The notes under the pieces were generated by a model. That model saw only the letters and a program-made list of their open reading frames with translations. It did no database searches and had not been told where the DNA came from. A program made the position numbers and the translations under genes. DNA of 36,298 nt from Pseudomonadales bacterium (GTDB taxonomy: Bacteria > Pseudomonadota > Gammaproteobacteria > Pseudomonadales > Azotimanducaceae), in NCBI GenBank assembly GCA_022827905.1, contig JAJEIQ010000065.1, forward strand, positions 1 through 36,298, in the 5' to 3' direction. Numbering within the stretch: the first letter of the stretch is position 1; each line of letters opens with the position of its first letter. Positions 5,724-22,338 of this stretch are shown in pieces.

Positions 5724-6881
5724 ATGCCAACTATGTATACAAGATTCCTGAAAACACCATCTCGATCCATTCTTCTGCTTGGCCCCCGCGGCACCGGAAA
5801 GTCCACGTGGATTCAAGATCGCTTTCCGCAAGCCATCTCATATGACCTGTTGGATGCGGGCGAGTCAATACGCCTGAATCGCAATCCCAACGCACTGTTT
5901 GACGAACTACGCGGGCTTGAAGCTGGCACTTGGGTGGTCATCGACGAAATTCAGAAAGCCCCAGCACTGCTCGACCAAGTGCACAGGCTGATGGCGTCAC
6001 ACGGGCTCAACTTTGTTTTGTCGGGGTCAAGTGCCAGAAAACTGCGGCGGGGCGGCGTGAACCTGCTCGCCGGGCGCGCGGTGTCAACGGAGCTTTACCC
6101 CCTTGTTTCCGCGGAGCTCGGCGAAGACTTCAATGTCGAGCACTCGCTGCGCTTCGGCAGCTTGCCGTTGGCGCTAATCCAATCCGACGCCCGAGACTAT
6201 CTGCGCACCTATGCCCAAACCTACCTGGATCAAGAAATCCGTGCGGAAGCACTCACGCGCAACTTTGCTGGATTTGCTCGTTTCTTGGAGGCGACGGCTC
6301 GACAGAACGGCCAGACAACCAATGCCAGCGCCATAGCGCGAGATGCGGGGGTGTCGCGAGCCACGGTGAACAACCATTTCGATCTGCTGGTCGATACGCT
6401 CATCGGCTTTTGTTTGCCGCCTTGGAAGTTGAAGGCCGCAAACAAGCAGGTGAGTCACAGCAAATTCTATCTGTTCGACTGTGGAGCGGCGCGCGCGCTT
6501 TCGGAACGCCTGCCCTACCCGGTGGGCGATGAGGAACGGGGCAGTTTGCTCGAAACCCTGATTCTTGGCGAAATGCGCGCCCATCTCGCCTATACGGGAT
6601 TGCGCTACCCGCTGCATTTTTGGCGCAACCACAACGGCACCGAGGTGGACGTGATCGCGGAAACCGTTGCCGGCTACACGGCCGTGGAAATCAAGGCCAG
6701 CTCGCGCTGGGAGCGGCGCTTCAACCGGGGCCTTCATCTGGTGCGATCCCAGTTGGGCGCCAACAAGACGCGGTGTTTTGGGGTGTACCTTGGCGAACGC
6801 GAGGCGCTGATCGATGATGTGCGGGTTCTTCCCGCCAAGGAGTTTTTGAAACGAATGTGGGAGGGGAGCGTTTTTGGTTGA
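5724..6881 (+). CDS. AAA ATPase with DUF4143 domain
   Basis: A 385-residue ATP-binding protein. Walker A is GPRGTGKST with Lys26, Walker B is VVIDEIQK with Asp74-Glu75, and a sensor-like LSGSSARKL follows near 107-115. A helix-turn-helix-like stretch lies at about 200-225 (AIARDAGVSRATVNNH). The C-terminal DUF4143 region contains EVDVIAE and then AVEIKAS, an arrangement reminiscent of the PD-(D/E)xK nuclease fold. The family is abundant in accessory regions of bacteria and archaea, and its cellular role is not established. It stands alone, divergent from the OYE operon, in sequence of lower GC than its neighbours. ATG at 5733 is an alternative start. Family call is strong; function unknown. 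Confidence 0.9.
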   Translation: MPTMYTRFLKTPSRSILLLGPRGTGKSTWIQDRFPQAISYDLLDAGESIRLNRNPNALFDELRGLEAGTWVVIDEIQKAPALLDQVHRLMASHGLNFVLSGSSARKLRRGGVNLLAGRAVSTELYPLVSAELGEDFNVEHSLRFGSLPLALIQSDARDYLRTYAQTYLDQEIRAEALTRNFAGFARFLEATARQNGQTTNASAIARDAGVSRATVNNHFDLLVDTLIGFCLPPWKLKAANKQVSHSKFYLFDCGAARALSERLPYPVGDEERGSLLETLILGEMRAHLAYTGLRYPLHFWRNHNGTEVDVIAETVAGYTAVEIKASSRWERRFNRGLHLVRSQLGANKTRCFGVYLGEREALIDDVRVLPAKEFLKRMWEGSVFG

Positions 6882-7950: not shown

Positions 7951-8148
7951 CGCATCAATCTCGGAAGGCCAGCGGCCACTTTGGTGCATTCATCTTTTGT
8001 CCACCTTTCCAGGTACTTAATGTAGTCCGGTGCCATTCTTCCGCCATGATAACCCAGATGTTGCCACGTCGATCTCATTGATGTGGATTCCACAAGACAA
8101 CAACGATGTAGAATCTGCGTCAATCCAACCGCAGGGAAGCACGCTCCC

Positions 8149-9090
8149 ATGCCCCAAGCCCCCACCTCCGAAGAGATTCGTGCCCTAGTCGGCCACCAGT
8201 TTCCCGGCGGCTCCTACACCATCGCCCACTGGGAGAACTTCCTGCTCACCGAATGCACCGGGGCGCAGCCGCTGCCGGATGGCTTGGCGCATCCGGTCGC
8301 CCTCTTCCATGTGCCGATCCTGGGGGCCAACACCTCCATCAAGGACATGTTCGCCCTCGGCCAAGCGGAATCGGACTTCTCCATCGGCATCGAGAGCTAC
8401 GTCTGGGAGATTTTCCAGCCGCTGCTTGAGGAAACGCCCTACCGCATCACCGGCGAGGTGGTGGAGGCCGACCGCCGCAGCGGCGACGGGCGTATCTTCG
8501 ACCGCATTGCCTTCCGCTTTGAAATGTTCGCGCCGGACGAGGCCTTGTGCGCCCGGGCCACCATCACTTGGCACTACCGGCGCAGCTTCGAAAGCAACCC
8601 ATCCGAACAGGCGGACCTGAACAAGCACGTCGAGCCGGTCGAGGCGTCACCGACCGCCGGTGAGCCGGCAACGTCACCCTCCGGCGTGCGGGTAGGCGAT
8701 GAGATTCCCCCTTGGGTCATGGCCCGGGTCGCGCCCGAGCGGATGCGCACCATGGCGGCCATCCTGCGCGATCCCAACCCAGTGCACTGGGACCCGTCAG
8801 TGGTGGAGAAGATCGGCTTTGGCCACCACACCATCAACCAAGGCCCCTTGGGCCTGAGCTACATGATCAACATGCTCCATGACTGGGGCGGCCCCCGCGC
8901 CATCCGCCGCATCGTCATGCGTTTCCCGTTGGTGGTGCTCGACGGCGACCACATCACGGCCAAGGGCCGGGTCACCAACATCCGCCAAGCGGACGGCGAA
9001 TGGATCGCCGACTGCGACATCTGGCTGGAGCGTGAGGGCACGGAGCCGCCCCTAGAAGGCACCGCCAGCGTGGCGCTCGGTTCGCTCTGA
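8149..9090 (+). CDS. MaoC-like double hot-dog acyl-CoA hydratase/dehydratase
   Basis: A 313-residue protein with two hot-dog folds. The N-terminal half (about 5-145) matches the FAS1/MaoC N-terminal dehydratase region, and the C-terminal half (about 180-310) carries the hydratase motif with Asp208, Asn210 and His213 (RDPNPVHWD) followed by a Gly-rich INQGPLG segment. This is the (R)-specific enoyl-CoA hydratase catalytic pattern, so it probably hydrates a trans-2-enoyl-CoA. The start is the ATG at 8149; an open frame extends to 8083, but that extra peptide looks non-native. The gene is monocistronic and closes the metabolic flank before the helicase array. The exact acyl substrate is unknown. 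Confidence 0.85.
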   Translation: MPQAPTSEEIRALVGHQFPGGSYTIAHWENFLLTECTGAQPLPDGLAHPVALFHVPILGANTSIKDMFALGQAESDFSIGIESYVWEIFQPLLEETPYRITGEVVEADRRSGDGRIFDRIAFRFEMFAPDEALCARATITWHYRRSFESNPSEQADLNKHVEPVEASPTAGEPATSPSGVRVGDEIPPWVMARVAPERMRTMAAILRDPNPVHWDPSVVEKIGFGHHTINQGPLGLSYMINMLHDWGGPRAIRRIVMRFPLVVLDGDHITAKGRVTNIRQADGEWIADCDIWLEREGTEPPLEGTASVALGSL

Positions 9091-9147: not shown

Positions 9148-9243
9148 ATGAACGATAGCAATGCGCGATCCCACCGCTTCACGGCAACACTGGACCAACA
9201 AGCCCGTAGGCGAGCACTGACTGATCTATCGAGCTGGTTGTGA
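9148..9243 (+). CDS. Possible 31-residue leader ORF upstream of drmA
   Basis: An ATG-initiated open frame of 31 codons, beginning MNDSNARSHR and ending in SSWL. Its TGA overlaps the GTG start of the DrmA gene in a four-base GTGA. That overlap geometry is the same as used between bona fide operon genes here, so it may couple translation or encode a small protein. Against it: no good ribosome site, and a TATTCT that could be a -10 element ends right at its ATG. Low confidence. Confidence 0.3.
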   Translation: MNDSNARSHRFTATLDQQARRRALTDLSSWL

Positions 9244-12200
9244 ACTATGTAGGCGCGAGAAAAAGGCTCGTCGACTGGCTACGCAAGCAACTCATCGGCC
9301 CAGCCGTCGAAGGCAGCTTGAACATGTCCCCTCTAGACCGGTATCCGACCGGAGTGCTGCATCCGGTCGACCCGGACCTGTCCGGCATTGATCCCGCCTC
9401 CTTGGTTGACGACATCGCTGAACGTTCCCTTCTGGAAGACGAGAGTGAAGACGATGCGACGCCGGACAACGACGAAACGAGCGAAGCGGCTCCAGCCCGG
9501 ACAACCCGCCGTCGACGCTACGTCCCACCTTCGTCGGCCGGATTCTCCTTCTTCCTTCGTGAAAACACTGCCCTATCAATCAATGCCTCCGCAGCAATCT
9601 ATCGGGGCGCAGATGAACGAGGCGATCGAGGCAGATTCCGCACTCGCGAATACACCCGTGAGGAACTCGAGGAATTTGTCATTACGGTGCCTAGCGCTGT
9701 GACGCCGGGGGAACGGAGAACGGACATCTGGGAAGGACGTGCCAGCATTGACATTCGCTCCCGCCCGCATCGCGACGGTTGGATCGTCACCGTCACCCTT
9801 TGCAATCGCAGGGAATTGGACCCAAGCACTTCCCCAAGGGACCGAACCGGCGACCGAGTGAGCAAGTCGTTGTTCGAAGCACGTCTTGAATGCGTCGTCG
9901 AGAGCGGCGGGTTGGCAGAGTATCCACGAGTTGACCCAAGCCTGCTCACGGATGAAGAACTGGAACTAGAGCTTCAGTATCAGCACCAGCGAATCTATGC
10001 CATCGGTCATGGAGCCGCCGCAAACTGGAATGTGGAACCTCACAGCCAGCCACGCATCTGGTGCGAGTTCATGCCAGAGGCGGAAGTGCCAATGATGACC
10101 GTGAACACCGGTGGCGACGATGCGGTGCTGCGACTCTCGTATCTTGCCGAAAAGGTCGTCCCCGAAGAATTGGCCGGGTTTGTTGAAGGATACGCACGGT
10201 GGATTGCCAACCAGCAGCACACCGCCGAAACGTTTTCCAGATCCGAGAAGCGAGAAGCAGCGAAAAGAATGCTCAAACGAATGCGCGCTGCACGGGATCG
10301 AATGCGGGCATGCGTAGAGATGCTTGGCACCGATCCGGTCGCTGTCGAGGCGTTCCGGCTGGCCAACGAGGCGATGCTCGATCAGATGCGCCAAGCCGAT
10401 GAGAACGCGGGGAAGGAACCTGAAGCCAGCACGTATCGCTGGCGTCCCTTTCAATTGGCCTTTCTGCTCACAGTGATGGTATCCACAATTCGGGAAAACG
10501 ACGATTATCGGGACGTGCTTGACCTCATCTGGTTTCCCACCGGAGGCGGGAAAACTGAGGCATATCTCGGCCTAATCGCGTTCCTCATCGCTTGGCGCCG
10601 ACAGAAGCACCCTGCTTCAGGAGGAGGCACCACCGCCTTCATGCGCTACACCCTGCGGTTGCTGACTAGCCAGCAGTTCGAACGCGCGGCACACATGGTG
10701 TGCGCGTTAGAACTGATTCGAAGGCGCCATCCCCACCAACTCGGCGAAGCGCCTATCAACATCGGCATCTGGGTCGGGCAGAAGACTAGCCCCAATCGAT
10801 ACAAGGAGGCGAAAGAACTCGTGGCGGAGATCAGGGACGGCAAGCCGGGAGCGGAATACAATCTGTTGCTGGAACGTTGCCCTTGGTGCAATACCCCTTT
10901 TGACATAGCGCACGGCTACCAGGCCACCGACGACAAGTTCCACTTCCACTGCACCGCCCCGAACTGCGACTTCGGGGCCGATGACCGCCCCCTGCCGTGC
11001 AACGTCGTGGACGATGCGCTGTACGACGACCCACCATCACTGCTGATCGCCACTATCGACAAGTTTGCGCGCCTTGCCTGGGAAGAACGCACCGGCGCCT
11101 TCTTCGGCGTCAACAACCAAATGCGGCCTCCAGAACTCATCATCCAAGATGAATTGCATCTCATCACCGGGCCATTGGGCTCGGTGGCCGGACTATACGA
11201 GGCGGGTATCGATACCCTCCTCATCCAGCGGGGCGTTCGTCCGAAGTACGTTGCGTCAACCGCTACCATACGCATGGCCCGAGAACAAGTGCGACGACTG
11301 TACGCTAGGGACCTAGCGGTGTTTCCCCCGCCAGGCCTGTCGTACGACGACATGTATTTCGCCAGAACGGACCCGAAACGTCCGGGCCGGCTCTATGTCG
11401 GATACCTGGCGCCCATGCTTGATCAGCAGCATTGCTTCGCTCCCCTTGCTGCCACTCTTCTGGCTGCCCCTCAAGTGCTGTTCGACGACAATGTGGACCG
11501 GGACGCCATGCTCGATGCCTGGTGGACTCAAGTCATCTACCACGGCAGCCTGAAAGGAGTCGGAAACAGTCACAATGCCTTTGTGACCGATGTACGCACA
11601 TTTGGACGGAAACTTGCCTACGGGCTGCAACAGGCAAACGACAGTGCACTGGGTACCGAATTCGAGCCCATGGAAGAAGACATCGACACGGCCAAGGATT
11701 TTGAGGCCGCCCTGGATCGGTTCGACGACCCCCAGATCGACCAGCTCACAAGCCGCAAAAATGCTCGCGAAAACGCGGAAACGTTTCATAGACTGGACAT
11801 TCGGCAGCGGAACGAAGGTTGCCTCGATGCGGTCATGGCAACGAATATGGTATCCGTCGGCCTCGACGTGGCGCGCCTCGCTCTGATGATCGTCAACGGA
11901 CAGCCGCTCACCACCGCGGAGTACATTCAAGCAACGAGCCGCGTCGGGCGTGCGGACGTGCCCGGTCTAGTGGTGGCAAACTACTATCGTCATCAGGCCC
12001 GGAGCCTATCTCACTACGAGAGCTTCCGCCCCTATCACGAGTCGTTCTATCGCTTCGTGGAGCCCAGCAGCGTCACGCCGTTCACCTACCAGGTACGGTC
12101 CCGAGCGCTCCATGCAGCCCTTGTCATCGCAATGCGACATTCGATTCCCGATCTAAAAGACAATAACTCAGCTGGTCAATTCGACCGGGAATTGCCAGGC

Positions 12201-12518
12201 GTCAGGACAGTGCTCTTAGAACTCAAGCGGCGCTGCGGACGTGCGGTGGCCGAGTTCGATCAAGCGCAGGGCATCGAGTCCCACCTCGAGCACCTAGCCA
12301 ACCAGTGGGATGGAGAAGCTCATCGTTGCAAGGAGGAACGCCGACAACTGAGTTACCAAGTGCAAAACAACGTGCGCAATGCCGACCGACTGCTGTATAC
12401 ACACGGCGACCCGCGCCCCGGTCTGTGGGCGACCCTGCACTCAATGCGCAACGTGGAGGGCAGCGGGTCACTGAAGATACATGACTGGCCCTTTTCATCG
12501 AGGACGCACGGCGTGTGA
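9240..12518 (+). CDS. drmA: DrmA-like SF2 helicase (DISARM family)
   Basis: A 1092-residue helicase. An N-terminal 400-residue region opens with RLVDWLRKQLIGP, typical of DISARM DrmA-like proteins. The motor has Walker A TGGGKT (Lys438), motif II DELH (637-640), motif III STAT (673-676) and motif VI QATSRVGR (897-904). A four-cysteine zinc ribbon is inserted between motifs I and II: C547-x2-C550-x20-C571-x4-C576. In DISARM, DrmA works with DrmB to bind invading DNA and block phage. The start is GTG, overlapping a small upstream frame by four bases. The next gene overlaps its 3' end by 38 bases. The symbol is assigned by family and by the adjacent DUF1998 gene, not by a search. Confidence 0.85.
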   Translation: MNYVGARKRLVDWLRKQLIGPAVEGSLNMSPLDRYPTGVLHPVDPDLSGIDPASLVDDIAERSLLEDESEDDATPDNDETSEAAPARTTRRRRYVPPSSAGFSFFLRENTALSINASAAIYRGADERGDRGRFRTREYTREELEEFVITVPSAVTPGERRTDIWEGRASIDIRSRPHRDGWIVTVTLCNRRELDPSTSPRDRTGDRVSKSLFEARLECVVESGGLAEYPRVDPSLLTDEELELELQYQHQRIYAIGHGAAANWNVEPHSQPRIWCEFMPEAEVPMMTVNTGGDDAVLRLSYLAEKVVPEELAGFVEGYARWIANQQHTAETFSRSEKREAAKRMLKRMRAARDRMRACVEMLGTDPVAVEAFRLANEAMLDQMRQADENAGKEPEASTYRWRPFQLAFLLTVMVSTIRENDDYRDVLDLIWFPTGGGKTEAYLGLIAFLIAWRRQKHPASGGGTTAFMRYTLRLLTSQQFERAAHMVCALELIRRRHPHQLGEAPINIGIWVGQKTSPNRYKEAKELVAEIRDGKPGAEYNLLLERCPWCNTPFDIAHGYQATDDKFHFHCTAPNCDFGADDRPLPCNVVDDALYDDPPSLLIATIDKFARLAWEERTGAFFGVNNQMRPPELIIQDELHLITGPLGSVAGLYEAGIDTLLIQRGVRPKYVASTATIRMAREQVRRLYARDLAVFPPPGLSYDDMYFARTDPKRPGRLYVGYLAPMLDQQHCFAPLAATLLAAPQVLFDDNVDRDAMLDAWWTQVIYHGSLKGVGNSHNAFVTDVRTFGRKLAYGLQQANDSALGTEFEPMEEDIDTAKDFEAALDRFDDPQIDQLTSRKNARENAETFHRLDIRQRNEGCLDAVMATNMVSVGLDVARLALMIVNGQPLTTAEYIQATSRVGRADVPGLVVANYYRHQARSLSHYESFRPYHESFYRFVEPSSVTPFTYQVRSRALHAALVIAMRHSIPDLKDNNSAGQFDRELPGVRTVLLELKRRCGRAVAEFDQAQGIESHLEHLANQWDGEAHRCKEERRQLSYQVQNNVRNADRLLYTHGDPRPGLWATLHSMRNVEGSGSLKIHDWPFSSRTHGV

Positions 12519-14403
12519 AGACTCCCCGCAGACAACAAGACGGTGCAAGCTCTTGACTGAAGCGCAGGTGCCCGTTCGACTCTCACATTTGCTGCGCGAA
12601 TGTTCGGTAGGCGCCATTGTGCGGGGTCCGGACAACCTGATGGTCGTCCAAGACATTCGAACTTGGGACCGCCCAGGAAACGACCCCTTGGAGCGCGAAA
12701 TCCGGTACGTTGATCGTGTGCGAAGCGCACTCGGCATAGCGCAGGCGCTCTGCGCTCCCCCGCGAGCGGCGAAGCGGGACAGGTCCGTAACGGGCTGGAT
12801 TCCGGCACTCCGGTTTCCGACCTGGATGCGCTGCCGGGCTTGCGGTTTGTTGCACAAGGCGCCTTGGCGCAGGTCAGGTACTGATAGAGACTCGACCTCG
12901 TCTCAAAACAACGAAGACCTCCAAAGAAACACGGCCTGCTCAGCGTGCGGCGGCACACTGGAACAGACGCCATGGGTTCTCGTTCACGAAGAGGGCTACC
13001 TAGCAGACGTGCCCTGGCACAATCTTGCCCATGAGGACTCCCGAAGTCCGGAACAACGCCAATGCGGCCGTGACTGGACTCAACCCTATCTGAGACTTAC
13101 TGATGACGGCACAGGACGACGGATTCTTTGCACTCGTTGTAACTCGTTTGCCAGCCTTTCGTCGAATGCAATGCCACGCATTCCATTCCCCCCCGGAACT
13201 CGGCAACAACCCTGGGTGCAGGAACCGCCGGCACAAACCCCGGAAGCTCCTGCCCTTCTGGTGGAAATTAACGACGTTCGGGTGCACACTCACGAAACAC
13301 GAACCGCACTGGTCATCCCGCCGGAATCGCGAATCCGTCGCGGAACGGTCACCGACCTCCTTTACAGCAACACTAAGGGTCAGGAACGCATTCGAAACGC
13401 GAGGAGCCTCCTCGACCGAAAACGCACAATTCGGCAACTCGCAAGAGATTACGGATGCAAACCAGCCGAGATCGACAAAGCTGTTGAAGAAATCGATCTG
13501 GGTTACCCTCTGTTCGGTGAAGCAGTTACGGCATCCGACCTTCTAGCCGATGAATACCAAGCGCTTATCGAAGTCATCCCAAATCTCAGGGAGGACGAGG
13601 ACTTTGTCACTGAACATCACACCGACGCTTGGAAAGAGCTCGATGGCACCACGGATTCCGAAGTCGCGCACCACGCAGTGAAGGCGGTCAACCGATTGAT
13701 CGCGGTAAACAAGCTGAAGGAAATCATGGTGCTGAAGGGATTTCGGCGTGCTGGCGGTGAACGGCCGGTGCCACCGGACATTACCGGCGAAAGCACTTGG
13801 CTGCCGGCACTCGAGTTGTACGGTGAGGGCATCTTTTTCACGCTCGACGAAGCGATGCTGCAGCGTTGGGAAGAAGACGAGCGCGTGTGCGGGCGCGCTG
13901 ACGCTTTCGCCAAGCGATATGTGAAGCGCGACGAACAGAACGCTCTCGAAGTCGATGTCTCTCCGCGCTTTCTGCTCTGTCACACGCTCGCCCATCTACT
14001 GATTCGTCAACTGGACGCCGAAGCGGGTTATCCCGCTGCCTCCTTGAAGGAGCGCATCTACTGCCAGGCCACCGGGGACCGCATGGCAGGCATCCTGATC
14101 TACGTTGCAGTGCCGGACGAAGAAGGCTCCTTAGGGGGGCTAATGGAACTCGCGCAACCCCAGCGATTTCTTAGACTGCTGGCCAGTGCAATCGAAGCCG
14201 CCGCATGGTGCTCGCTCGACCCAGTCTGCGCGGAACAGGAAGGGCATGGACCCGACCTACTGAACCGGGCAGCTTGCCATGCCTGCGTTCTGATTCCCGA
14301 AACAAGCTGCGACTTTGACAATGTATTGTTGGACCGGACCTTCGTGAAGGGCACCGCGCCCGATTTTCCCGCATACCTAGATTTTGCAGAGTCGACCGCC
14401 TAG
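12481..14403 (+). CDS. drmB: DrmB-like DUF1998 protein (DISARM family)
   Basis: A 640-residue protein. Zinc-binding cysteine pairs occur at C118/C121 (RCRACG), C153/C156 (CSACGG) and C217/C220 (CTRC). The C-terminal DUF1998 region (about 490-620) has HTLAHLLIRQL starting at His501, then GILIYVAVPDEEGSLGGL and a Cys-rich AACHACVLIPETSCDF end. DUF1998 proteins act as partners of SF2 helicases, and DrmA-DrmB form the core DISARM complex. The start is uncertain: ATG 12481 lies inside drmA, and TTG 12553 is an alternative nearer the first recognisable residues. Its stop shares one base with the next GTG (TAGTG), so the genes are translationally coupled. Confidence 0.85.
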   Translation: MTGPFHRGRTACEDSPQTTRRCKLLTEAQVPVRLSHLLRECSVGAIVRGPDNLMVVQDIRTWDRPGNDPLEREIRYVDRVRSALGIAQALCAPPRAAKRDRSVTGWIPALRFPTWMRCRACGLLHKAPWRRSGTDRDSTSSQNNEDLQRNTACSACGGTLEQTPWVLVHEEGYLADVPWHNLAHEDSRSPEQRQCGRDWTQPYLRLTDDGTGRRILCTRCNSFASLSSNAMPRIPFPPGTRQQPWVQEPPAQTPEAPALLVEINDVRVHTHETRTALVIPPESRIRRGTVTDLLYSNTKGQERIRNARSLLDRKRTIRQLARDYGCKPAEIDKAVEEIDLGYPLFGEAVTASDLLADEYQALIEVIPNLREDEDFVTEHHTDAWKELDGTTDSEVAHHAVKAVNRLIAVNKLKEIMVLKGFRRAGGERPVPPDITGESTWLPALELYGEGIFFTLDEAMLQRWEEDERVCGRADAFAKRYVKRDEQNALEVDVSPRFLLCHTLAHLLIRQLDAEAGYPAASLKERIYCQATGDRMAGILIYVAVPDEEGSLGGLMELAQPQRFLRLLASAIEAAAWCSLDPVCAEQEGHGPDLLNRAACHACVLIPETSCDFDNVLLDRTFVKGTAPDFPAYLDFAESTA

Positions 14404-15566
14404 TGGCCAAGCGCAAATTTGAGTTGCCTGGCATCCAAGATCTCAGCAAGGAGCAAGAGGCGGTACGCGCACTGCCCAACGAAGGCCAGCATCTCGTCGT
14501 GGGAGGCCCCGGAACCGGCAAGTCCGTAGTTGCACTAATCCGCGCCCGGCGTCACCAGCGGGAAGGCGACGACTATCTCTTCCTAGTGTTCAACCATCTG
14601 CTCAATCGCGCGAGTGGTCAATTGTTCGGCAAAGGCATCGCCAGTGAAACTTGGGACGCCTGGTTTCGGCGTCGGTTTTACCAGCTGTCAGGTCAACCAG
14701 TTCCGACGCTGGAGGCAAACGACCGAGGCTATCGGTCGATTGATTGGGCGAGCGTGGATTCGATCGTCACCACAATGCCTCACATTGAACCGCAGCAATC
14801 GACATTTCTCGTAATAGACGAGGGACAGGACATGCCACGGGAGTTCTACAACGCCCTCGTCAGGCTCGGCTTCGACCGATTTTTCGTTGTCGCCGACCAA
14901 AATCAGCAGATCACCGAGGCGAACAGCAGCCGCCAGGATATCCAAGACTGTCTCGCCATCGAATCAAACAAGGTCATCGAACTCAAACACAATTACAGGA
15001 ATCAACATCAAGTGGCGCGATTGGCGAGGGAATTCCATACCGGCGATCCGGCCAGCCCGCCTCCCGAGCTACCGGCAACCTCACCGGGAGCCGTGCCCGC
15101 GCTTTATGTCTACGGGAACGGCAAGCAGGATGCTGTTGCACGAGGCATTCTGCAGCTGGCCGACCGGGACCCCCGGCAACTTATTGGCGTCATCACGCCG
15201 AACAACCAAGTTCGGGATGACTACCACAATGCTCTCCAATCAGCCGAGGTGCGCTTGGACAACCCGAAGGCAACCATCAAAACCTACCACCGAGGCCGCC
15301 GTGCAGAGGTATCGTTCGACGAAGGTGGAGTCCTAGTCATCAATGCGCAGGCCTGCAAGGGACTCGAGTTTGACACAGTAGTGCTAGCAGACATCGACGA
15401 ATACTGGGTTCCCCGCGCCGACCCGGATATCACCCGGCGCCTGTTTTACGTCATGGTTGCGAGGGCCAAGGAGCGGGTGCTGATGTTCATGAAGCGTGAC
15501 GGACGCAGGGACATCGAACGCATCCTTCCCACGGACGAAAAGCTCCTGCGGCGGAAGGAGTTGTAG
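14403..15566 (+). CDS. Compact UvrD-like SF1 helicase/ATPase
   Basis: A 387-residue protein with a full set of SF1 motifs: Walker A GGPGTGKS (Lys40), motif II VIDEGQD (Asp139-Glu140), motif III VVADQNQQ, motif IV-like HNYRN, motif V ACKGLEFDTVVL and motif VI FYVMVARAKERVL. At under 400 residues it lacks room for the usual 1B/2B insertions of UvrD or Rep, so it may be a DNA-dependent ATPase or translocase rather than a full unwinding enzyme. The GTG start overlaps the drmB stop by one base, and the next gene follows directly. It belongs to the array. SF1 helicases are not part of classical DISARM. Confidence 0.85.
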   Translation: MAKRKFELPGIQDLSKEQEAVRALPNEGQHLVVGGPGTGKSVVALIRARRHQREGDDYLFLVFNHLLNRASGQLFGKGIASETWDAWFRRRFYQLSGQPVPTLEANDRGYRSIDWASVDSIVTTMPHIEPQQSTFLVIDEGQDMPREFYNALVRLGFDRFFVVADQNQQITEANSSRQDIQDCLAIESNKVIELKHNYRNQHQVARLAREFHTGDPASPPPELPATSPGAVPALYVYGNGKQDAVARGILQLADRDPRQLIGVITPNNQVRDDYHNALQSAEVRLDNPKATIKTYHRGRRAEVSFDEGGVLVINAQACKGLEFDTVVLADIDEYWVPRADPDITRRLFYVMVARAKERVLMFMKRDGRRDIERILPTDEKLLRRKEL

Positions 15567-17156
15567 ATGACCACCGCGGAATTGTTCGAGTCGCCAAGCG
15601 CGCGAGCCGAGATGGACGTTCCCGAATCAGGGCTTCTCGTAACCAATCACCTCAATCTCATGTACATGCTCGCAGCAGGGCTGGTACTGCCGCCTGCTGG
15701 GTTCGGAGACAAGTACTTCCACGACCCCCTTGGCGAGTTTCCGGGCTGGATTCCTCTCTTCATCGACAAAGTGCCCAACGAGGCGATCGAATCGTCCATC
15801 CGGGAAGCCGCGCACCTGAAACCGGTCATCGTCGAATATCGTCTCGCCGGGTTATTGGGTCCGGTGTTGGCTTTCGACAACCAAAGGATCTGGGAAGTCC
15901 GGCTTCCTTGCGCAATCAGCAGCACGGTGCAGGCGCTACTTGTGCCCGCCCCGTTGCCCACATCGCGAATCGTGTCAGTTGTCTTTCATACGCCGGAGCA
16001 CAAACGGGCGTGCGAATCGGAAGCCAAGGAATTCGGTAACGTGCCGTTGAGGGACTACCTGTGCAGAACAAGCAAGCCACTGTTTACTAAAGCAACTCAG
16101 TCACCATGGCCTTGCGGCACAGGCCCTGAACATCGCCACGTCCCACTCCAGGCGCCTTTTGCGGTCGGTGGGGTCATGGCGATGCTCCAACTCTTCGGCA
16201 ACTTGGGTGAGCTTGCGGTTGATGCATGCCGGATTGCATTCGACCCCGAAATCGAAACATCTCCGACACTAGGCGAACATCCAATTTTCGCCGATCTTGG
16301 ATCTTGGATTCGGGACGGCAAGATCGAGAAACCGGTGCCTGCAACGGCGAACGCCGAGGCGAATCGAATCGACCTAGAGAACAATTCGCAGGCAATGCTC
16401 TTTTGGAATTCCGTGCAGCAAATGGTGGATTGGCGCACTGCGGGAGAGGTCAACAACATCGAGAACGTGTTAATCGACTGTCTAACGGCAGCCATCAGGG
16501 ACATTGACCCGAGATTGCAGGCGGGGGTGGGCCAACTTCACAACACGCTCGTTTCCCTGACAGGACTCGGTGATGCAACGACCAGCGAGCTGTTCGAACG
16601 CCACGACACACCGCTGGCACGCGCCATGATCCTGCTCTTTCTCCGACGCGACTGCGCGGACCTTCTTGACTATCAGAGCAATCATCTAGCCGAACCGGAT
16701 TGGCTTGCCGCGGCCATCCTGTTCGCGGTTCGCGACGGATGGTTGAAGCTGCCTCTCCAACTCCGGGAAGGCCGCCAGCTGGCTGATGCAGTTTCCCATC
16801 GGATGGCACACTTGTCCCACCAGATTGCTCAATCCGGACTCCATCTGGGCGAAGCCCCTCTCAGGATCCGACCACTACGTGAGGCGTTTGGTGATGGCTC
16901 CGGATGGCGAGCCGCTGAGAAGGGGGCCGCGCTGGAGATTGCCAGAGTCCATAAGTGGAATTGCATCAGCACCCGAATCAATCTGGGTCCGGGCAAATAC
17001 AAGCTCATTGTCAAGGGTGGTTCGACGCAAATTGAACTCCCCGGCGAGCCGGGGATACGCCCGGAAATCGATTCCGGCCGATTTCTTGAGATGCTGTCCA
17101 AGACCCGCCTCGACCACAAACTTGAGGCCAAAATCCGCAAGATCCTAAAGGGCTAA
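15567..17156 (+). CDS. Unrecognised 529-residue protein of the DrmAB array
   Basis: The ATG follows the preceding stop with no gap, and eight bases separate its end from the NERD-helicase gene, so it is an integral array member. No Walker motif, HKD (phospholipase D), methylase, or zinc-finger pattern is visible. The N-terminus (about 20-75: GLLVTNHLNLMYMLAAGLVL, a Gly/Pro loop, then GWIPLF) looks like a small alpha/beta domain. The middle (about 180-430) is mostly predicted helical, and the C-terminal 60 residues are rich in Lys with beta-type spacing. It sits between two SF1 helicases, suggesting a structural or sensor subunit. I do not recognise a family; no function is claimed. Confidence 0.85.
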   Translation: MTTAELFESPSARAEMDVPESGLLVTNHLNLMYMLAAGLVLPPAGFGDKYFHDPLGEFPGWIPLFIDKVPNEAIESSIREAAHLKPVIVEYRLAGLLGPVLAFDNQRIWEVRLPCAISSTVQALLVPAPLPTSRIVSVVFHTPEHKRACESEAKEFGNVPLRDYLCRTSKPLFTKATQSPWPCGTGPEHRHVPLQAPFAVGGVMAMLQLFGNLGELAVDACRIAFDPEIETSPTLGEHPIFADLGSWIRDGKIEKPVPATANAEANRIDLENNSQAMLFWNSVQQMVDWRTAGEVNNIENVLIDCLTAAIRDIDPRLQAGVGQLHNTLVSLTGLGDATTSELFERHDTPLARAMILLFLRRDCADLLDYQSNHLAEPDWLAAAILFAVRDGWLKLPLQLREGRQLADAVSHRMAHLSHQIAQSGLHLGEAPLRIRPLREAFGDGSGWRAAEKGAALEIARVHKWNCISTRINLGPGKYKLIVKGGSTQIELPGEPGIRPEIDSGRFLEMLSKTRLDHKLEAKIRKILKG

Positions 17157-17164
17157 ATTCCATC

Positions 17165-18748
17165 ATGCGTATGGTGCCGAATTCCCCCTACGCAACGGGT
17201 AGCCAAGCAGAGAAAGTGACCTTTGAGCGGCTCCGTCGTGCCTTCGACGACCGCTTTGTCGCGTTTCACTCGCTCAAGCCAACACGTCATCCCCACAAGC
17301 GATTTCCGGAAATTGACTTCGTCGTCTGCGGCCCCGAAGGACTCTACGTGCTCGAAGTCAAGGGCGGAAGGATCGCTTGTCGTGATGGCATTTGGGAGTA
17401 CCGGGACCGATACGACAACGTGTCACGCTCGCAGGAAGGCCCATTCCGACAGGCGGAGTCAGCACTGCGCGGGCTTATGGACACACTGTTCACCGGTCTC
17501 CCCGCGAACGTTCTTGCTCCTGTGACAACAGGATATGGCGTGGTGTTCCCCGACTGCAACTGGCGCGAAGACGGTGTGGAGTGGGAACCGCCAATGCTCG
17601 CTGACCGGCGACGCAGCATGGATATGGAAGGATGGCTTCGGGGTCTGTTTGAGCACTGGCAAGCGCGTGGAAAGTCAGGCGAGTACCTCGATGAGGATGC
17701 TCTGAAGCCCATTGTCGGTTTCCTCCGCCCACAAGTGGACGCCCCAGCGAGTGCGGACACTGTTCCCCTCCTCGACCAGGTGCGGGACGCTGGCCGCCGC
17801 ATCGAAAGGCTCACGGACGACCAAATGCGCATGGTGGACGTGGCAGCGGCAAACCCGAGGATCCTCTGTGCGGGCGGCGCAGGAACCGGCAAGACGTTCC
17901 TGGCCGAACGGCTAGCCCGGATCTGGGCCGGAGAAGCCTTAAACGTTGCGTTGGTATGTCGGTCCCCATGGCTGAGGCACTTCCTCGCATCGCGACTTTC
18001 AATTCCTGAGGTGACCATCTCGCTAATCGGGGGCATTCACTTGGACTGCCAACGTGCCGGACTAGAACGATTCGATGCACTAATAGTCGACGAGGGACAA
18101 GACCTGTTCGATACAAATAGCATCGAAACACTGGACCGCATTCTAGTCGGCGGACTGGAAACGGGACGTTGGTGCTGGTTTCATGACCTCAACAATCAAT
18201 CCCTGACCGCGGAGTTCGATCAACAAGCGAAGGACTATCTGGAGAGCCTTGATCCGGTGCGGATACCACTACGCATCAATTGTCGGAATACCCGGGTCAT
18301 CCTCGAGTGGATTCAGGACACGCTAGGCGCCGACCTCGGCACACGAGGCGCAGGGAGCGGGCCCGAGGTCCGTCAACACAGCGCAGGCAGCCCCAAAGAA
18401 GCCGCAGAGTGTGTTGCTCGCGAAGTTGTCGAACTCGTGGACGTCGGCGGGTTAGCACCAGGTTCGATCACAATCTTATCGCCATTCGACTACGGCGAAT
18501 CCTGTTTGACCGAGGACTCATCGTTTGCGGCTAGTCACATAAGACGTCTGGACGAATACTCAATGCGCGGCACTGAAGGCGACAAGGTGGGATTCGCTCG
18601 AATTGATCAATTCAAGGGCCTAGAGAACGAAGCGATCATTGTGATTGATCTTCCCGCACCTGACAAACTCAGCGGTAGTGGACCCGCTCACTACGTTGCA
18701 ATGAGTCGAGCGCGATCCGTGCTATCGCTGGTCCAAATGATCGGGTAG
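17165..18748 (+). CDS. NERD nuclease-SF1 helicase fusion
   Basis: A 527-residue protein. The N-terminal NERD domain (about 10-120) has the predicted nuclease signature PEIDFVV with Asp51 and LEVKGG with Glu64 and Lys66, the D..ExK arrangement of the PD-(D/E)xK fold. From about 215 onward lies an SF1 helicase: Walker A GGAGTGKT (Lys243), motif II IVDEGQD (Asp309-Glu310), an RINCRN motif IV region, DQFKGLENEAIIV motif V and YVAMSRARSVLSL motif VI. All key residues are present, so both activities look intact. It probably translocates on DNA and cuts it. It is the last gene of the array and is followed by a hairpin. NERD-helicase proteins occur widely; pairing with DrmAB is the notable point. Confidence 0.88.
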   Translation: MRMVPNSPYATGSQAEKVTFERLRRAFDDRFVAFHSLKPTRHPHKRFPEIDFVVCGPEGLYVLEVKGGRIACRDGIWEYRDRYDNVSRSQEGPFRQAESALRGLMDTLFTGLPANVLAPVTTGYGVVFPDCNWREDGVEWEPPMLADRRRSMDMEGWLRGLFEHWQARGKSGEYLDEDALKPIVGFLRPQVDAPASADTVPLLDQVRDAGRRIERLTDDQMRMVDVAAANPRILCAGGAGTGKTFLAERLARIWAGEALNVALVCRSPWLRHFLASRLSIPEVTISLIGGIHLDCQRAGLERFDALIVDEGQDLFDTNSIETLDRILVGGLETGRWCWFHDLNNQSLTAEFDQQAKDYLESLDPVRIPLRINCRNTRVILEWIQDTLGADLGTRGAGSGPEVRQHSAGSPKEAAECVAREVVELVDVGGLAPGSITILSPFDYGESCLTEDSSFAASHIRRLDEYSMRGTEGDKVGFARIDQFKGLENEAIIVIDLPAPDKLSGSGPAHYVAMSRARSVLSLVQMIG

Positions 18749-18809: not shown

Positions 18810-19035
18810 AAGCGCACGAGGCAACTTGACGCGCTTCGCAGAACTCGTGGCAGACGCCGTACGAGCCACGATGAGTGGGCCGAGGAACGCGTCGGCATCA
18901 AACACGGGCATGAATGGAGCTACCTCTCAAGGCTCACGCCGGGCGATTCTCCTACAGATCATCGGGGCGTTTTCCTCTTCTTTTCCAGTGCCCGGCCCCT
19001 CAAAGTGGGGCTTTCAATCACCGGAAGATACCGCG

Positions 19036-19875
19036 ATGTTCCGCTACACCATTCTTTTTTGCTGCTTGTTGGGCGGGCCCGCGCTCGCCACGGATGTCCG
19101 CACCAGCGCCCCTGCCCCGTCTCTCGCCAACACCTACCAAGGCGGTGTTGACTTTAGACGCTATTGGGTCAGTGAAAAGCTCGACGGGGTGCGCGCCCTG
19201 TGGGACGGCGAAGCGCTCCGCTCCCGCCGCGGCAACCGCTTCAACGCGCCGGCTTGGTTCACCGAGGGCTTTCCGGCTCAAGCGCTCGATGGCGAACTGT
19301 GGATGGGACGTGGCACCTTCGAGAGCTTATCCGGTGCCGTGCGTCGGCAAGTCCCGGACGACGCAGCGTGGCGGCGCATTCGCTTCATGGTCTTCGACCT
19401 CCCGGAGCCGGGGACACCCTTCGACGACCGTCTCAAACGATTGCAGGACCTCCTGGCGCCAGCGCCTTCACCCCACATCGCCTTGGTCGAGCAGTTTCGC
19501 GTTTCCAGCGAAGCTGAACTCATGGCGATATTGGAGTGCGTCACTGCCGAGGGCGGCGAAGGCCTGATGCTCCGCGACAGCCGGTCCCTGCACCGGCCGG
19601 ACCGCAGCAACGACCTGCTGAAGCTCAAGGCCTACCAAGACGCCGAAGCAATCGTCGTCGCCCACTTGCCGGGCAAGGGCAAGTACCGGGGCATGCTGGG
19701 TTCGCTGCTGGTCGAGACGCCGGACGGGCACCGGTTCAAATTGGGCACTGGCTTCACGGACGCGGACCGGCGCAGCCCACCGCCCATCGGGGCGACGGTG
19801 ACCTACAAGCACTTCGGAACCACCGCCAAGGGGATTCCCCGCTTCGCGAGCTTCATGCGCGTCCGGCGGGACTGA
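19036..19875 (+). CDS. ligE: Periplasmic-type ATP-dependent DNA ligase (LigE-like)
   Basis: A 279-residue protein. Residues 1-19 form a Sec signal peptide (hydrophobic TILFCCLLGG then ALA-TD). The adenylation domain has motif I KLDGVR with the AMP-accepting Lys48, DGELW (85-89), FMVFDLP (117-123), motif IV EGLMLR (175-180) and motif V LLKLKAY (194-200). A short OB-fold follows (about 205-279). Small exported ATP-dependent ligases of this kind occur in many Gram-negative bacteria and seal nicks with bound AMP. The start is placed at 19036 because GGAAG lies upstream and the signal peptide begins there; an open frame reaches back to 18826 but looks non-coding. It stands alone beside the defence array. 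Confidence 0.88.
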   Translation: MFRYTILFCCLLGGPALATDVRTSAPAPSLANTYQGGVDFRRYWVSEKLDGVRALWDGEALRSRRGNRFNAPAWFTEGFPAQALDGELWMGRGTFESLSGAVRRQVPDDAAWRRIRFMVFDLPEPGTPFDDRLKRLQDLLAPAPSPHIALVEQFRVSSEAELMAILECVTAEGGEGLMLRDSRSLHRPDRSNDLLKLKAYQDAEAIVVAHLPGKGKYRGMLGSLLVETPDGHRFKLGTGFTDADRRSPPPIGATVTYKHFGTTAKGIPRFASFMRVRRD

Positions 19876-20609: not shown

Positions 20610-21245
20610 TCAAGAGCTAGGCGGTTTTCGACCCCATTGGTCCCAAAAGGTTACGTCCCGCGCATCCATGCGCTGGGCCCGCTTGAGGTTCGCGCCCTTG
20701 GTGTAGGCGATGGGCAGCATCACCGTCAGCAGAGCGTCCTTGGGCAGGTCAACCACCTCCGCCACCTCGGCCTGCCGGGCGGCGAGCAGCGAGGTCCAGG
20801 TGGTGCCGATGCCCCTCGCCCGCAGGGCCAGCATCAGCGACCAGGCAGCGGGCAGGATGGAGCCGAAGTAACCCACTTGTCCGGCGGCTGTAGCGTCTGG
20901 CGGCAAGCCCAGGTTGCAGACTAGGATCATCGCCGGAATCTCATGCAGGCGGGCGACCAGCGCTTGTTGGGTGGGTTTGATCTCCACGCCCCGGGCGACC
21001 ACCAATTCCTCCAGGGTCTGTTGGTAGAGCGCCGCCAAGCGACGCTTGACCGCCGGGTCGGTCACCACCACGAAGCGCCAGCTTTCGCCGCCCAAGCCGG
21101 TGGGCGCCTGGGTGGCGATGTTGATGCAGTCGAGAATGTCCGACTGCGCCACGGGGCGGTCGAAGTCCAGCCGGCGGCGCACGGAACGGGCCGTCGCCAG
21201 CACCTGATCGACGCTGGCCAGATCGATGGAATCGCTCAACGCCAC
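20610..21245 (-). CDS. Nitroreductase family oxidoreductase
   Basis: A 211-residue FMN enzyme. The N-terminal FMN phosphate-binding stretch is RSVRRRLDFDRPV, the second site is PTGLGGESWRFVVV, and the C-terminal region GIGTTWTS then LPIAYTKG is the usual third FMN contact. Such enzymes reduce quinones, nitro groups or enones with NAD(P)H, and some desaturate steroid-like rings. It starts at a GTG seven bases after the sterol-reductase-like gene stop, with GAAGG upstream; a TTG two codons in (21239) has better ribosome-site spacing. Last gene of a four-gene minus-strand operon. The specific substrate is unknown. Confidence 0.85.
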   Translation of the reverse strand: MALSDSIDLASVDQVLATARSVRRRLDFDRPVAQSDILDCINIATQAPTGLGGESWRFVVVTDPAVKRRLAALYQQTLEELVVARGVEIKPTQQALVARLHEIPAMILVCNLGLPPDATAAGQVGYFGSILPAAWSLMLALRARGIGTTWTSLLAARQAEVAEVVDLPKDALLTVMLPIAYTKGANLKRAQRMDARDVTFWDQWGRKPPSS

Positions 21246-21252
21246 AGTCCCT

Positions 21253-22338
21253 TCAATAGACCTTCGGCACGATGCGCCAAGGCACCTTTTGCCGGTACTG
21301 ATCCCAAAGCGCACCGTACTTTTCCGCGCAACGGCGGTCGTCGTCGCGTTCCCGAGGGAACAGCAGCGCGACGTAGTAGAGCGGGTACAGCCATGGGCCG
21401 AACAGCAGCGGCCAACCGAGCGCCAGCGCCAGGCCGCAGGCCATCAGGATCTCGCCCAGGTAGTTGACGTGCCGTGATACGCCCCAGAAGCCGCTGTGCA
21501 GCACCTGCCGCTCGCCGTCCGAAAAGGCCTGTGGCGCCATGCGCCCGAGGAACGCCCGCTGCGGGTCCCGCTTGAAGGTGAACTTCTGCATGTTGGCGCC
21601 GCGCGCCAGCATCCAACCGGCGAAAAACACCAAGGCGGCCAGAACCAGCAGCCAGGCGGGCGCCTGGGGGTTGGGCAGATCGGCTGCCGACCAGAGCCCG
21701 ACGGCATAGAAGTAGGGATACCAGGCCAAGCAGCCCCACACCAGCTTGAACCCCAAGCGTTCCGCGACGAAGTCGTAGGTGTACAGATGCACCCGCTCGA
21801 AAATCAGGTAGTCGCAAATGAACCACGAGAAGAGCGCCACGTAGAGCACCACCCCCGGAGAGGGGTCGTCCGGGTAGGCGAGGAAGTGATGGGCCGCAAA
21901 GGACAGCAGGTTGAGTTGTAGCAGGACGGCGCCAACCAGGTAGAGAACCATCTTGGCGTCGGCCCGCCGCTTGAACATCTGCGGATTTTCCCGGCGGCCG
22001 AGATAGAATTCGGCCAGCAGCGCGCCGCCCCGCGAAGGAGTGCTCAGCACAGTGGCCACGGAGAGCAGCAAGCCCAGGGTGCAGGCGCCCGCCAGCCCCG
22101 CCCACCGGTGCTGCCAGAGCCAGTCCCAAGGCACCGCGCCGCTGAAGCCAAGAACCGCCCAGAGCCCTACGCAGACAATGAGCACCAGCGGCCCGTTTAG
22201 ACGGTAGCTCAGCAACTCGCCGGAATCCTCGTCGCGCACGTAGCCGGTCACCCGGCGGGCCGGCAACAGCAGGTGCAAAACGAAGATGCCCGCGAAGACG
22301 ACCCACGGCGTGAAGAAGCCGATCAGTAGATCCGTCAC
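21253..22338 (-). CDS. Delta(14)-sterol reductase-like membrane protein (ERG4/ERG24 family)
   Basis: A 361-residue polytopic membrane protein with about eight to ten hydrophobic segments. The C-terminus is diagnostic: SRHVNYLGE (288-296), then PRERDDDRRCAEKYGALW (328-345) and VPWRIVPKVY at the very end. This matches eukaryotic C14 and C24 sterol reductases, where these residues hold NADPH. It probably reduces an isolated double bond in a sterol or similar polycyclic lipid. The start is GTG 22338, which overlaps the dehydrogenase stop by four bases (GTGA); the open frame upstream is a shadow. Bacterial members are uncommon. Reaction is inferred; an isoprenylcysteine-methyltransferase-like role is the main alternative since the folds are related. 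Confidence 0.82.
   Translation of the reverse strand: MTDLLIGFFTPWVVFAGIFVLHLLLPARRVTGYVRDEDSGELLSYRLNGPLVLIVCVGLWAVLGFSGAVPWDWLWQHRWAGLAGACTLGLLLSVATVLSTPSRGGALLAEFYLGRRENPQMFKRRADAKMVLYLVGAVLLQLNLLSFAAHHFLAYPDDPSPGVVLYVALFSWFICDYLIFERVHLYTYDFVAERLGFKLVWGCLAWYPYFYAVGLWSAADLPNPQAPAWLLVLAALVFFAGWMLARGANMQKFTFKRDPQRAFLGRMAPQAFSDGERQVLHSGFWGVSRHVNYLGEILMACGLALALGWPLLFGPWLYPLYYVALLFPRERDDDRRCAEKYGALWDQYRQKVPWRIVPKVY

Follow-up and report, generated by a model that had tools for sequence, protein, structure and literature searches.

A 36,298-nucleotide stretch of contig JAJEIQ010000065.1 from a Pseudomonadales bacterium (hereafter the window, always meaning this whole stretch) carries an array of five genes that we lean towards regarding as a mobile, DISARM-related anti-invader system. 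Its core would consist of four genes, encoding DrmA, DrmB, a superfamily 1 (SF1) helicase and a protein predicted to combine a DarT-like with an ADP-ribosylhydrolase (ARH)-like fold, and would usually be accompanied by a NERD nuclease-helicase. We infer the defence role, and every biochemical step proposed below, from gene content, recurrence, folds, motifs and site occupancy. An earlier interpretation made from the letters of the window (the sequence-only reading) had proposed a relationship to DISARM, and the DrmA and DrmB profiles bear it out. It had also named a failure of the five genes to co-occur elsewhere as a refuting outcome; the set recurs with order and strand unchanged in 13 of 99 annotated loci, including distant hosts, and the array is therefore more than a chance association.

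All five open reading frames (ORFs) lie on the plus strand in the ORF list of the window, in the order given by the sequence-only reading. The first (9240..12518, +) encodes a DrmA-like superfamily 2 (SF2)/YprA helicase of the short DrmA type, 1092 residues in length, which scores 838 bits against the NCBIfam model DrmAS, below that model's curated cut-off of 950, and 668 bits against PADLOC DrmA. The adjoining DrmB-like DUF1998/MZB partner (12481..14403, +; 640 residues from the ATG at 12481) scores 338 bits against NF038324, above the cut-off of 240, and 41.8 bits against Pfam MZB. Gene 3 (14403..15566, +) encodes a small UvrD/HelD-like SF1 helicase of 387 residues, matching Pfam UvrD_C and AAA_19, both above cut-off. 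Gene 5 (17165..18748, +; 527 residues) fuses a NERD nuclease of the PD-(D/E)xK type, carrying the motif EIDFVVCGPEGLYVLEVK, to an SF1 helicase with the Walker A sequence GGAGTGKT, and scores 37.5 bits against Pfam NERD (cut-off 22.1) and 131 bits against PADLOC RTasNERD-Hel. The identities assigned to these four genes by the sequence-only reading are thus confirmed by profile searches, while gene 4 (15567..17156, +; 529 residues) matched no profile in PADLOC, Pfam, NCBIfam or PHROGs. From the ORF coordinates the joins are −38, −1, 0 and +8 bases, as originally described; genes, order and strand stand, and it is the first join that needs revision, because it takes the furthest upstream ATG as the drmB start. 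Homologous DrmB proteins begin shortly ahead of the PVRLSHLL motif, where the window has an in-frame TTG (12553), and this is probably the start used in place of the ATG at 12481. The first join would then be about +34, and the 38-base overlap between drmA and drmB may not be real.

To place the array among its relatives, genome contigs were scanned with a five-sequence DrmA alignment, which matched 595 stretches, of which 578 were confirmed; since the best 80 were kept, the sample is biased towards close relatives of the window. These 80, the window and 18 loci obtained otherwise make up the 99 loci (numbered with the prefix L), which were annotated with profiles built from the array's own protein families. 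Eighteen of them, the window included, form one group carrying DrmA, DrmB, the SF1 helicase and gene 4, and the 13 loci with all five genes in the window's order belong to this group. By their record titles, the group's hosts are Pseudomonadota, Deltaproteobacteria (L016), Phycisphaerae (L017), Vicinamibacterales (L027) and Acidobacteriota (L039); the latter four records are metagenome bins, whereas Rhodanobacter thiooxydans (L014) and Vibrio ezurae (L020) are named strains. Some group members depart from the common layout in one way or another. The sequence of L018 stops just after gene 4, and in L024 (L024:9953-23132) gene 4, the SF1 gene and a partial DrmB stand on the opposite strand about 6 kb from DrmA, an array that is rearranged or misassembled. 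Genes are split over two frames in L010 (drmB) and L039 (drmA). Outside the clade, the set is permuted in four loci (L005, L035, L038 and L056), where the NERD-helicase comes first and is followed by DrmA, DrmB, SF1 and gene 4; their gene-4 matches are weak, at 35–71 bits, and the permuted set of L005 sits on a Deinococcus gobiensis plasmid. This plasmid homologue came to light through context and profile, a tblastn search for gene 4 on plasmids having returned none. Similarly, gene 4 as a single-protein query against the genome contigs gave no relative, whereas the DrmA alignment scan did, and DrmA had no match among phage records. In many Actinomycetota loci (L022, L036, L048, L051, L054 and others) a large gene for a protein of about 1550–1700 residues precedes a NERD- or other helicase, DrmA and DrmB.

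A quick DrmA tree of 95 rows, calculated without bootstraps, rooted for drawing only and omitting L039 with its split DrmA, united 17 of the 18 group loci in a single clade with a Shimodaira-Hasegawa-like approximate likelihood ratio test (SH-aLRT) support of 100 and a stem of 0.51. The sister side contains 35 further DrmAB rows, 32 of them with an SF1 and/or NERD-helicase match; a NERD-helicase lies near DrmAB in 19, and a Dcm-like protein was matched by phmmer in 17. The DrmD-annotated rows L094, L098 and L099 fall on the opposite side of the tree together with the DISARM-like rows L093 and L096, and DrmC is annotated in L094 and L099.

The locus DNA of the 18 group loci was searched with phmmer (E up to 1e-6) for the parts that complete DISARM: DrmC, DrmD, DrmE, DrmMI, DrmMII and Dcm. 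The references comprised two DrmC proteins, DrmD from L098 and L099, DrmMI from L093, L094, L098 and L099, and the cytosine methylase from L096 and L005. None of the 18 loci matched either DrmC reference, any DrmD or DrmMI reference, or the DrmMII/Dcm cytosine methylase of L096 or L005. The presumed DrmE reference, an 801-residue protein of L096 that itself has no PADLOC hit, likewise gave no match in the 18 loci, and none of the PADLOC hits shown for the array proteins of the window bears the DrmE name. The DrmC profile PDLC02585 found nothing in the window's own genome (96.8% complete), yet matched 9 of 14 controls. The absence of DrmC and of a methylase described by the sequence-only reading is supported, as far as these DrmC and DISARM-type methylase references reach, in all 18 loci. 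PADLOC definitions, as given in PMC9252829, require DrmC together with DrmD/DrmMI or DrmE/DrmMII, and PMC9142583 describes the DrmC of DISARM as often missing and dispensable.

Gene 4, which the sequence-only reading had called an orphan, turned out to have recognisable folds. Its predicted structure is confident (mean predicted local distance difference test score, pLDDT, 88.9) and suggests a DarT-like ADP-ribosyltransferase (ART) fold at about residues 15–175, an ARH/DraG ADP-ribosylhydrolase fold at about 193–424 and a C-terminal alpha/beta part at 437–529. The best fold match is to DarT (E 7.8e-5). The predicted fold is that of a nucleic-acid-modifying enzyme, and for this reason the proposal of the sequence-only reading that the array acts without host modification is not supported as it stands. 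The alignment to the DarT profile is weak at the sequence level, and the relationship is carried by the modelled fold, not by sequence. Searching solved structures by sequence with the gene-4 alignment yielded nothing useful, and the Pfam family 2CompART had no match in 299 genomes, where no control matched either. Carried by 18 of 18 group loci, gene 4 looks like a core component. Residues identical in all 17 aligned clade members include N30, G38, D53, P63 and P131, and among further polar positions N27 and E80 are kept in 16 of the 17 and K49 and Y51 in 15. DarT1 needs E152, N104, M71 and R52, of which E152 is the essential ART glutamate (PMC11543638). At the position aligned with this glutamate, in a register taken from weak alignments, none of the 17 members has Glu (A, I, V, L, G, T, N or F being found instead), which makes canonical ADP-ribosyl transfer by gene 4 unlikely; the preceding position, with Glu in two and Asp in two of the 17, is not conserved. 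Hydrolases of the ARH/DraG family carry metal-binding acidic motifs. By eye, no conserved GD..G or DTD-like ARH motif was seen in the gene-4 alignment, where many members have an E/D-x-D/E pair near residue 377. Two genes of the DarT family were noticed elsewhere. One lies on another contig of the window's own genome (L106, G000:C41:130-597; DarT PF14487, 156.8 bits), is cut by the contig end and is followed by a DarG-like macrodomain frame. The other (L092:15069-15671) comes immediately after the UvrD-DrmA-DrmB-NERD array of an Azospirillum plasmid and so gives a second pointer to ADP-ribosylation genes in the neighbourhood of DrmAB and NERD.

The helicase motifs of the core are well preserved. 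Walker A of DrmA is present in 17 of the 18 group loci, the split gene of L039 being the exception, and its DExH motif in all 18; the gene-3 helicase has both Walker A and the DE.QD form of Walker B in 18 of 18, and SF1 motif VI was matched in few loci by simple patterns. All 46 NERD-helicase loci retain a relaxed NERD motif, as is partly expected of loci picked by a NERD profile, and a stricter one fits 10 of the 13 group loci. The Walker A linked to NERD is missing in L004, L011, L049 and L056. In L004, whose array lies between serS-like and tkt-like genes (by eye), the NERD protein (L004:10870-11961) keeps the nuclease motif and lacks Walker A. The nuclease motif of gene 5 is thus better kept than its helicase part.

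Comparison with genomes of the same genus (numbered with the prefix G) revealed that the array occupies an exchangeable site. Its left edge is marked by a MaoC-like gene (8083..9090, +; Pfam MaoC) that is conserved in same-genus genomes and lies outside the system, as does the ATP-dependent DNA ligase gene downstream (18826..19875, +; PRK09125, 369 bits; 92% nucleotide identity in L132). The flanks had been described as metabolic, which the ligase is not. G709 and G714 have an empty site: both array and ligase are absent, and the next gene after MaoC, no more than about 70 bases on, is a homologue of the window's nitroreductase gene (20610-21314). In G710, G712, G715 and G716 a protein of 1584–1751 residues (truncated by the end of the contig in G716) follows MaoC in place of the array; that of G710 has SF2 and UvrD helicase domains, and the others share its start, as judged by eye. 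The ligase also follows this large helicase cargo in G710. Because the site is empty, array-bearing or large-helicase-bearing in genomes of one genus, we conclude that it exchanges cargo. The G+C content of the array, 0.574–0.592, is below that of most of the flanks (0.589–0.687), whose low values lie just upstream, at 6–8.5 kb. The four same-genus loci with the large protein at the MaoC site are L130, L131, L132 and L135; the protein of L132 (L132:5373-10604) has an SF2 and a UvrD helicase with PADLOC matches to DpdF and GajB, to which the window's own genome has partial, helicase-level matches only. A DUF4143 AAA ATPase gene at 5724-6881 of the window, separated from the downstream array by about 2.4 kb, is found as well in L130 and L131, which have no array at this site. 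Frames resembling a serine recombinase (L012:815-2158) and a tyrosine integrase (L014:13461-14867) were noticed by eye near other arrays, which fits mobility.

The sequence-only reading had suggested looking for other defence genes near such arrays. Defence neighbours were scored at three loci picked by eye from ten listed, a chosen sample that gives no rate. In Vibrio ezurae (L020:1-21818) Druantia III (DruH3, DruE3) immediately precedes the array, and a UvrD-type helicase with an N-terminus that looks RelE-like by eye follows it. Beside L015 are a type I restriction-modification system and the PADLOC candidate systems PDC-S02 and PDC-M12, and TmtA lies beside L080.

Taken together, we favour a model in which DrmAB would load on incoming or replicating DNA by recognising its structure, namely 5' single-stranded overhangs by analogy with DISARM DrmAB, and then translocate. 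The SF1 helicase would assist unwinding, the DarT/ARH-fold protein may bind the exposed strand or an ADP-ribose or NAD+ ligand and thereby license or aim the attack, and the NERD enzyme, where present, would cut. DISARM DrmAB is reported to be autoinhibited until it loads on 5' overhang DNA (PMC9142583), which offers discrimination of self from non-self by DNA structure without a methylase. On this reading an ADP-ribose-type fold would occupy the place that a methylase has in DISARM. A ligand-binding role for gene 4 is a guess, given the apparent loss of its canonical catalytic residues, and the protein could be a reader, a licensing factor or an altered enzyme. A tentative extension, which we think possible at best, is that the array represents a third DISARM-like form of immunity: in place of methylation, the self/non-self or effector step would rely on the chemistry or sensing of ADP-ribose by a fused DarT-ARH protein whose active site has been remodelled and which is coupled to DrmAB.

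Several observations weigh against the proposed system. The NERD-helicase was not found in 4 of the 17 group loci with DNA beyond gene 4 (L019, L024, L027 and L039), and with the Walker A of its helicase part absent in L004 and L011 the role of cutter that the sequence-only reading gave this enzyme is doubtful, even though the relaxed nuclease motif persists throughout. The methylase references overlooked the type I methylase near L015 and may have overlooked others of this type as well. In the window flanks, the DUF4143 ATPase gave the sole strong PADLOC score among ten genes scanned (PDC-S01, 179.5 bits), with a weak hit of 17.5 bits for one other gene. Gene 4 is rare, occurring in 2 of 293 genomes of the order, its own included, with a single-protein query and in 1 of 398 genomes of the phylum, its own, with an alignment profile that scored at most three candidates per genome. 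Lastly, the canonical catalytic residues of both gene-4 domains seem to be lost.

The last point bears on an alternative in which gene 4 is an active DarT-type writer: it would poison the DNA of the invader by ADP-ribosylation instead of having it cut, and its ARH domain would serve as a built-in eraser or brake. The fold match to DarT, the DarT-family gene directly after the NERD gene on the Azospirillum plasmid and the conserved polar residues (N30 and D53 in every member, N27, E80, K49 and Y51 in most) are in its favour, but the ART glutamate is found in no member at its aligned position, read from weak profile alignments, its neighbour is unconserved and the ARH acidic motifs are not evident; we consider an active writer unlikely. 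The patchy presence of the NERD-helicase and its first place in the four permuted relatives could instead reflect two neighbouring units, with DrmA, DrmB, SF1 and gene 4 forming one system and the NERD-helicase being a defence gene in its own right that is frequently carried along, and the match of gene 5 to RTasNERD-Hel, a profile of NERD-helicases linked to reverse-transcriptase systems, points the same way. The two are nevertheless same-strand neighbours in 13 group loci, and NERD-helicases recur near DrmAB in over half of the sister rows, which makes this division of the array improbable in our view.

A further alternative is a housekeeping module for DNA repair or recombination: YprA-family helicases serve repair as well (PMC12458937), and a large SF2-UvrD-type fusion takes the same site in four same-genus genomes. 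The rarity of the array, the empty site and the defence neighbours at the three chosen relatives make such a role very unlikely. Finally, DrmA and DrmB are unmistakable, as they would be in a classical DISARM worn down by loss of DrmC and methylase. The array has, however, its own DrmA clade on a long stem, apart from the DISARM rows L093, L094, L096, L098 and L099, its helicase motifs are intact, and the same extra genes recur in distant hosts; on these grounds degraded DISARM was rejected as its identity, and we give that origin hardly any credence.

The searches made matched the five-gene set to no named system. DISARM, ARMADA and TALON are the nearest described, each lacking features of the array or needing ones not found here. 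With DISARM of classes 1 and 2 the array shares a DrmA helicase and a separate, adjacent DrmB DUF1998 partner; it differs in having no reference match to DrmC, DrmD or a DISARM methylase, in its SF1 helicase, DarT/ARH-fold protein and NERD-helicase, and in its separate DrmA clade. ARMADA types I and II (Bell et al. 2025 preprint, PMC12458937) are described as DISARM-related YprA helicase arrays, and type II ends in a GajB/UvrD-type helicase, as the array has a UvrD-type one. In ARMADA, however, YprA is fused to DUF1998 and accompanied by BrxHII-like and PglX-like genes, whereas DrmA and DrmB are separate here and neither BrxHII nor PglX is among the profile hits shown for the five window proteins; identity with ARMADA was rejected. 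TALON, described in the same preprint (PMC12458937), shares a YprA helicase and a NERD nuclease with the array, but occurs largely in Chloroflexota, includes genes for TPR-CSD and TBP, and has its YprA joined to an RNase H fold that is inactivated. It was rejected too; the five array genes and five nearby ORFs had no Pfam match to TPR-CSD or TBP. DarTG toxin-antitoxin pairs likewise associate a DarT-type fold with an ADP-ribose-removing type of fold; in gene 4 both predicted folds reside in one protein, the eraser type is ARH instead of a macrodomain, the canonical catalytic residues look lost and the protein sits in a DrmAB array. Alphaproteobacterial plasmid UvrD-DrmA-DrmB-NERD arrays (L095, L007 and L092) share DrmAB, a NERD-helicase and a second SF1-type helicase, but differ in gene order, UvrD and DrmA branch, and no gene-4 homologue was detected in them. 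The five-gene set was not found described in the literature searched, although it might be listed in the supplementary tables of PMC12458937. The main text of that preprint, when searched by word, makes no mention of ADP-ribosylation. ADP-ribosyltransferase, DISARM and DrmB appeared together only in the review PMC12926258, in unrelated passages.

In DISARM, the licensing of DrmAB and the identity of the DNA cutter are left open, DrmC being dispensable (PMC9142583). The array ties DISARM to ADP-ribosylation folds, a link not met in the literature searched. Being compact and recurrent, and combining DrmAB with a NERD nuclease and a DarT/ARH-fold core protein where no DrmC or DISARM methylase was matched, it offers a natural system for testing structure-based recognition of self.

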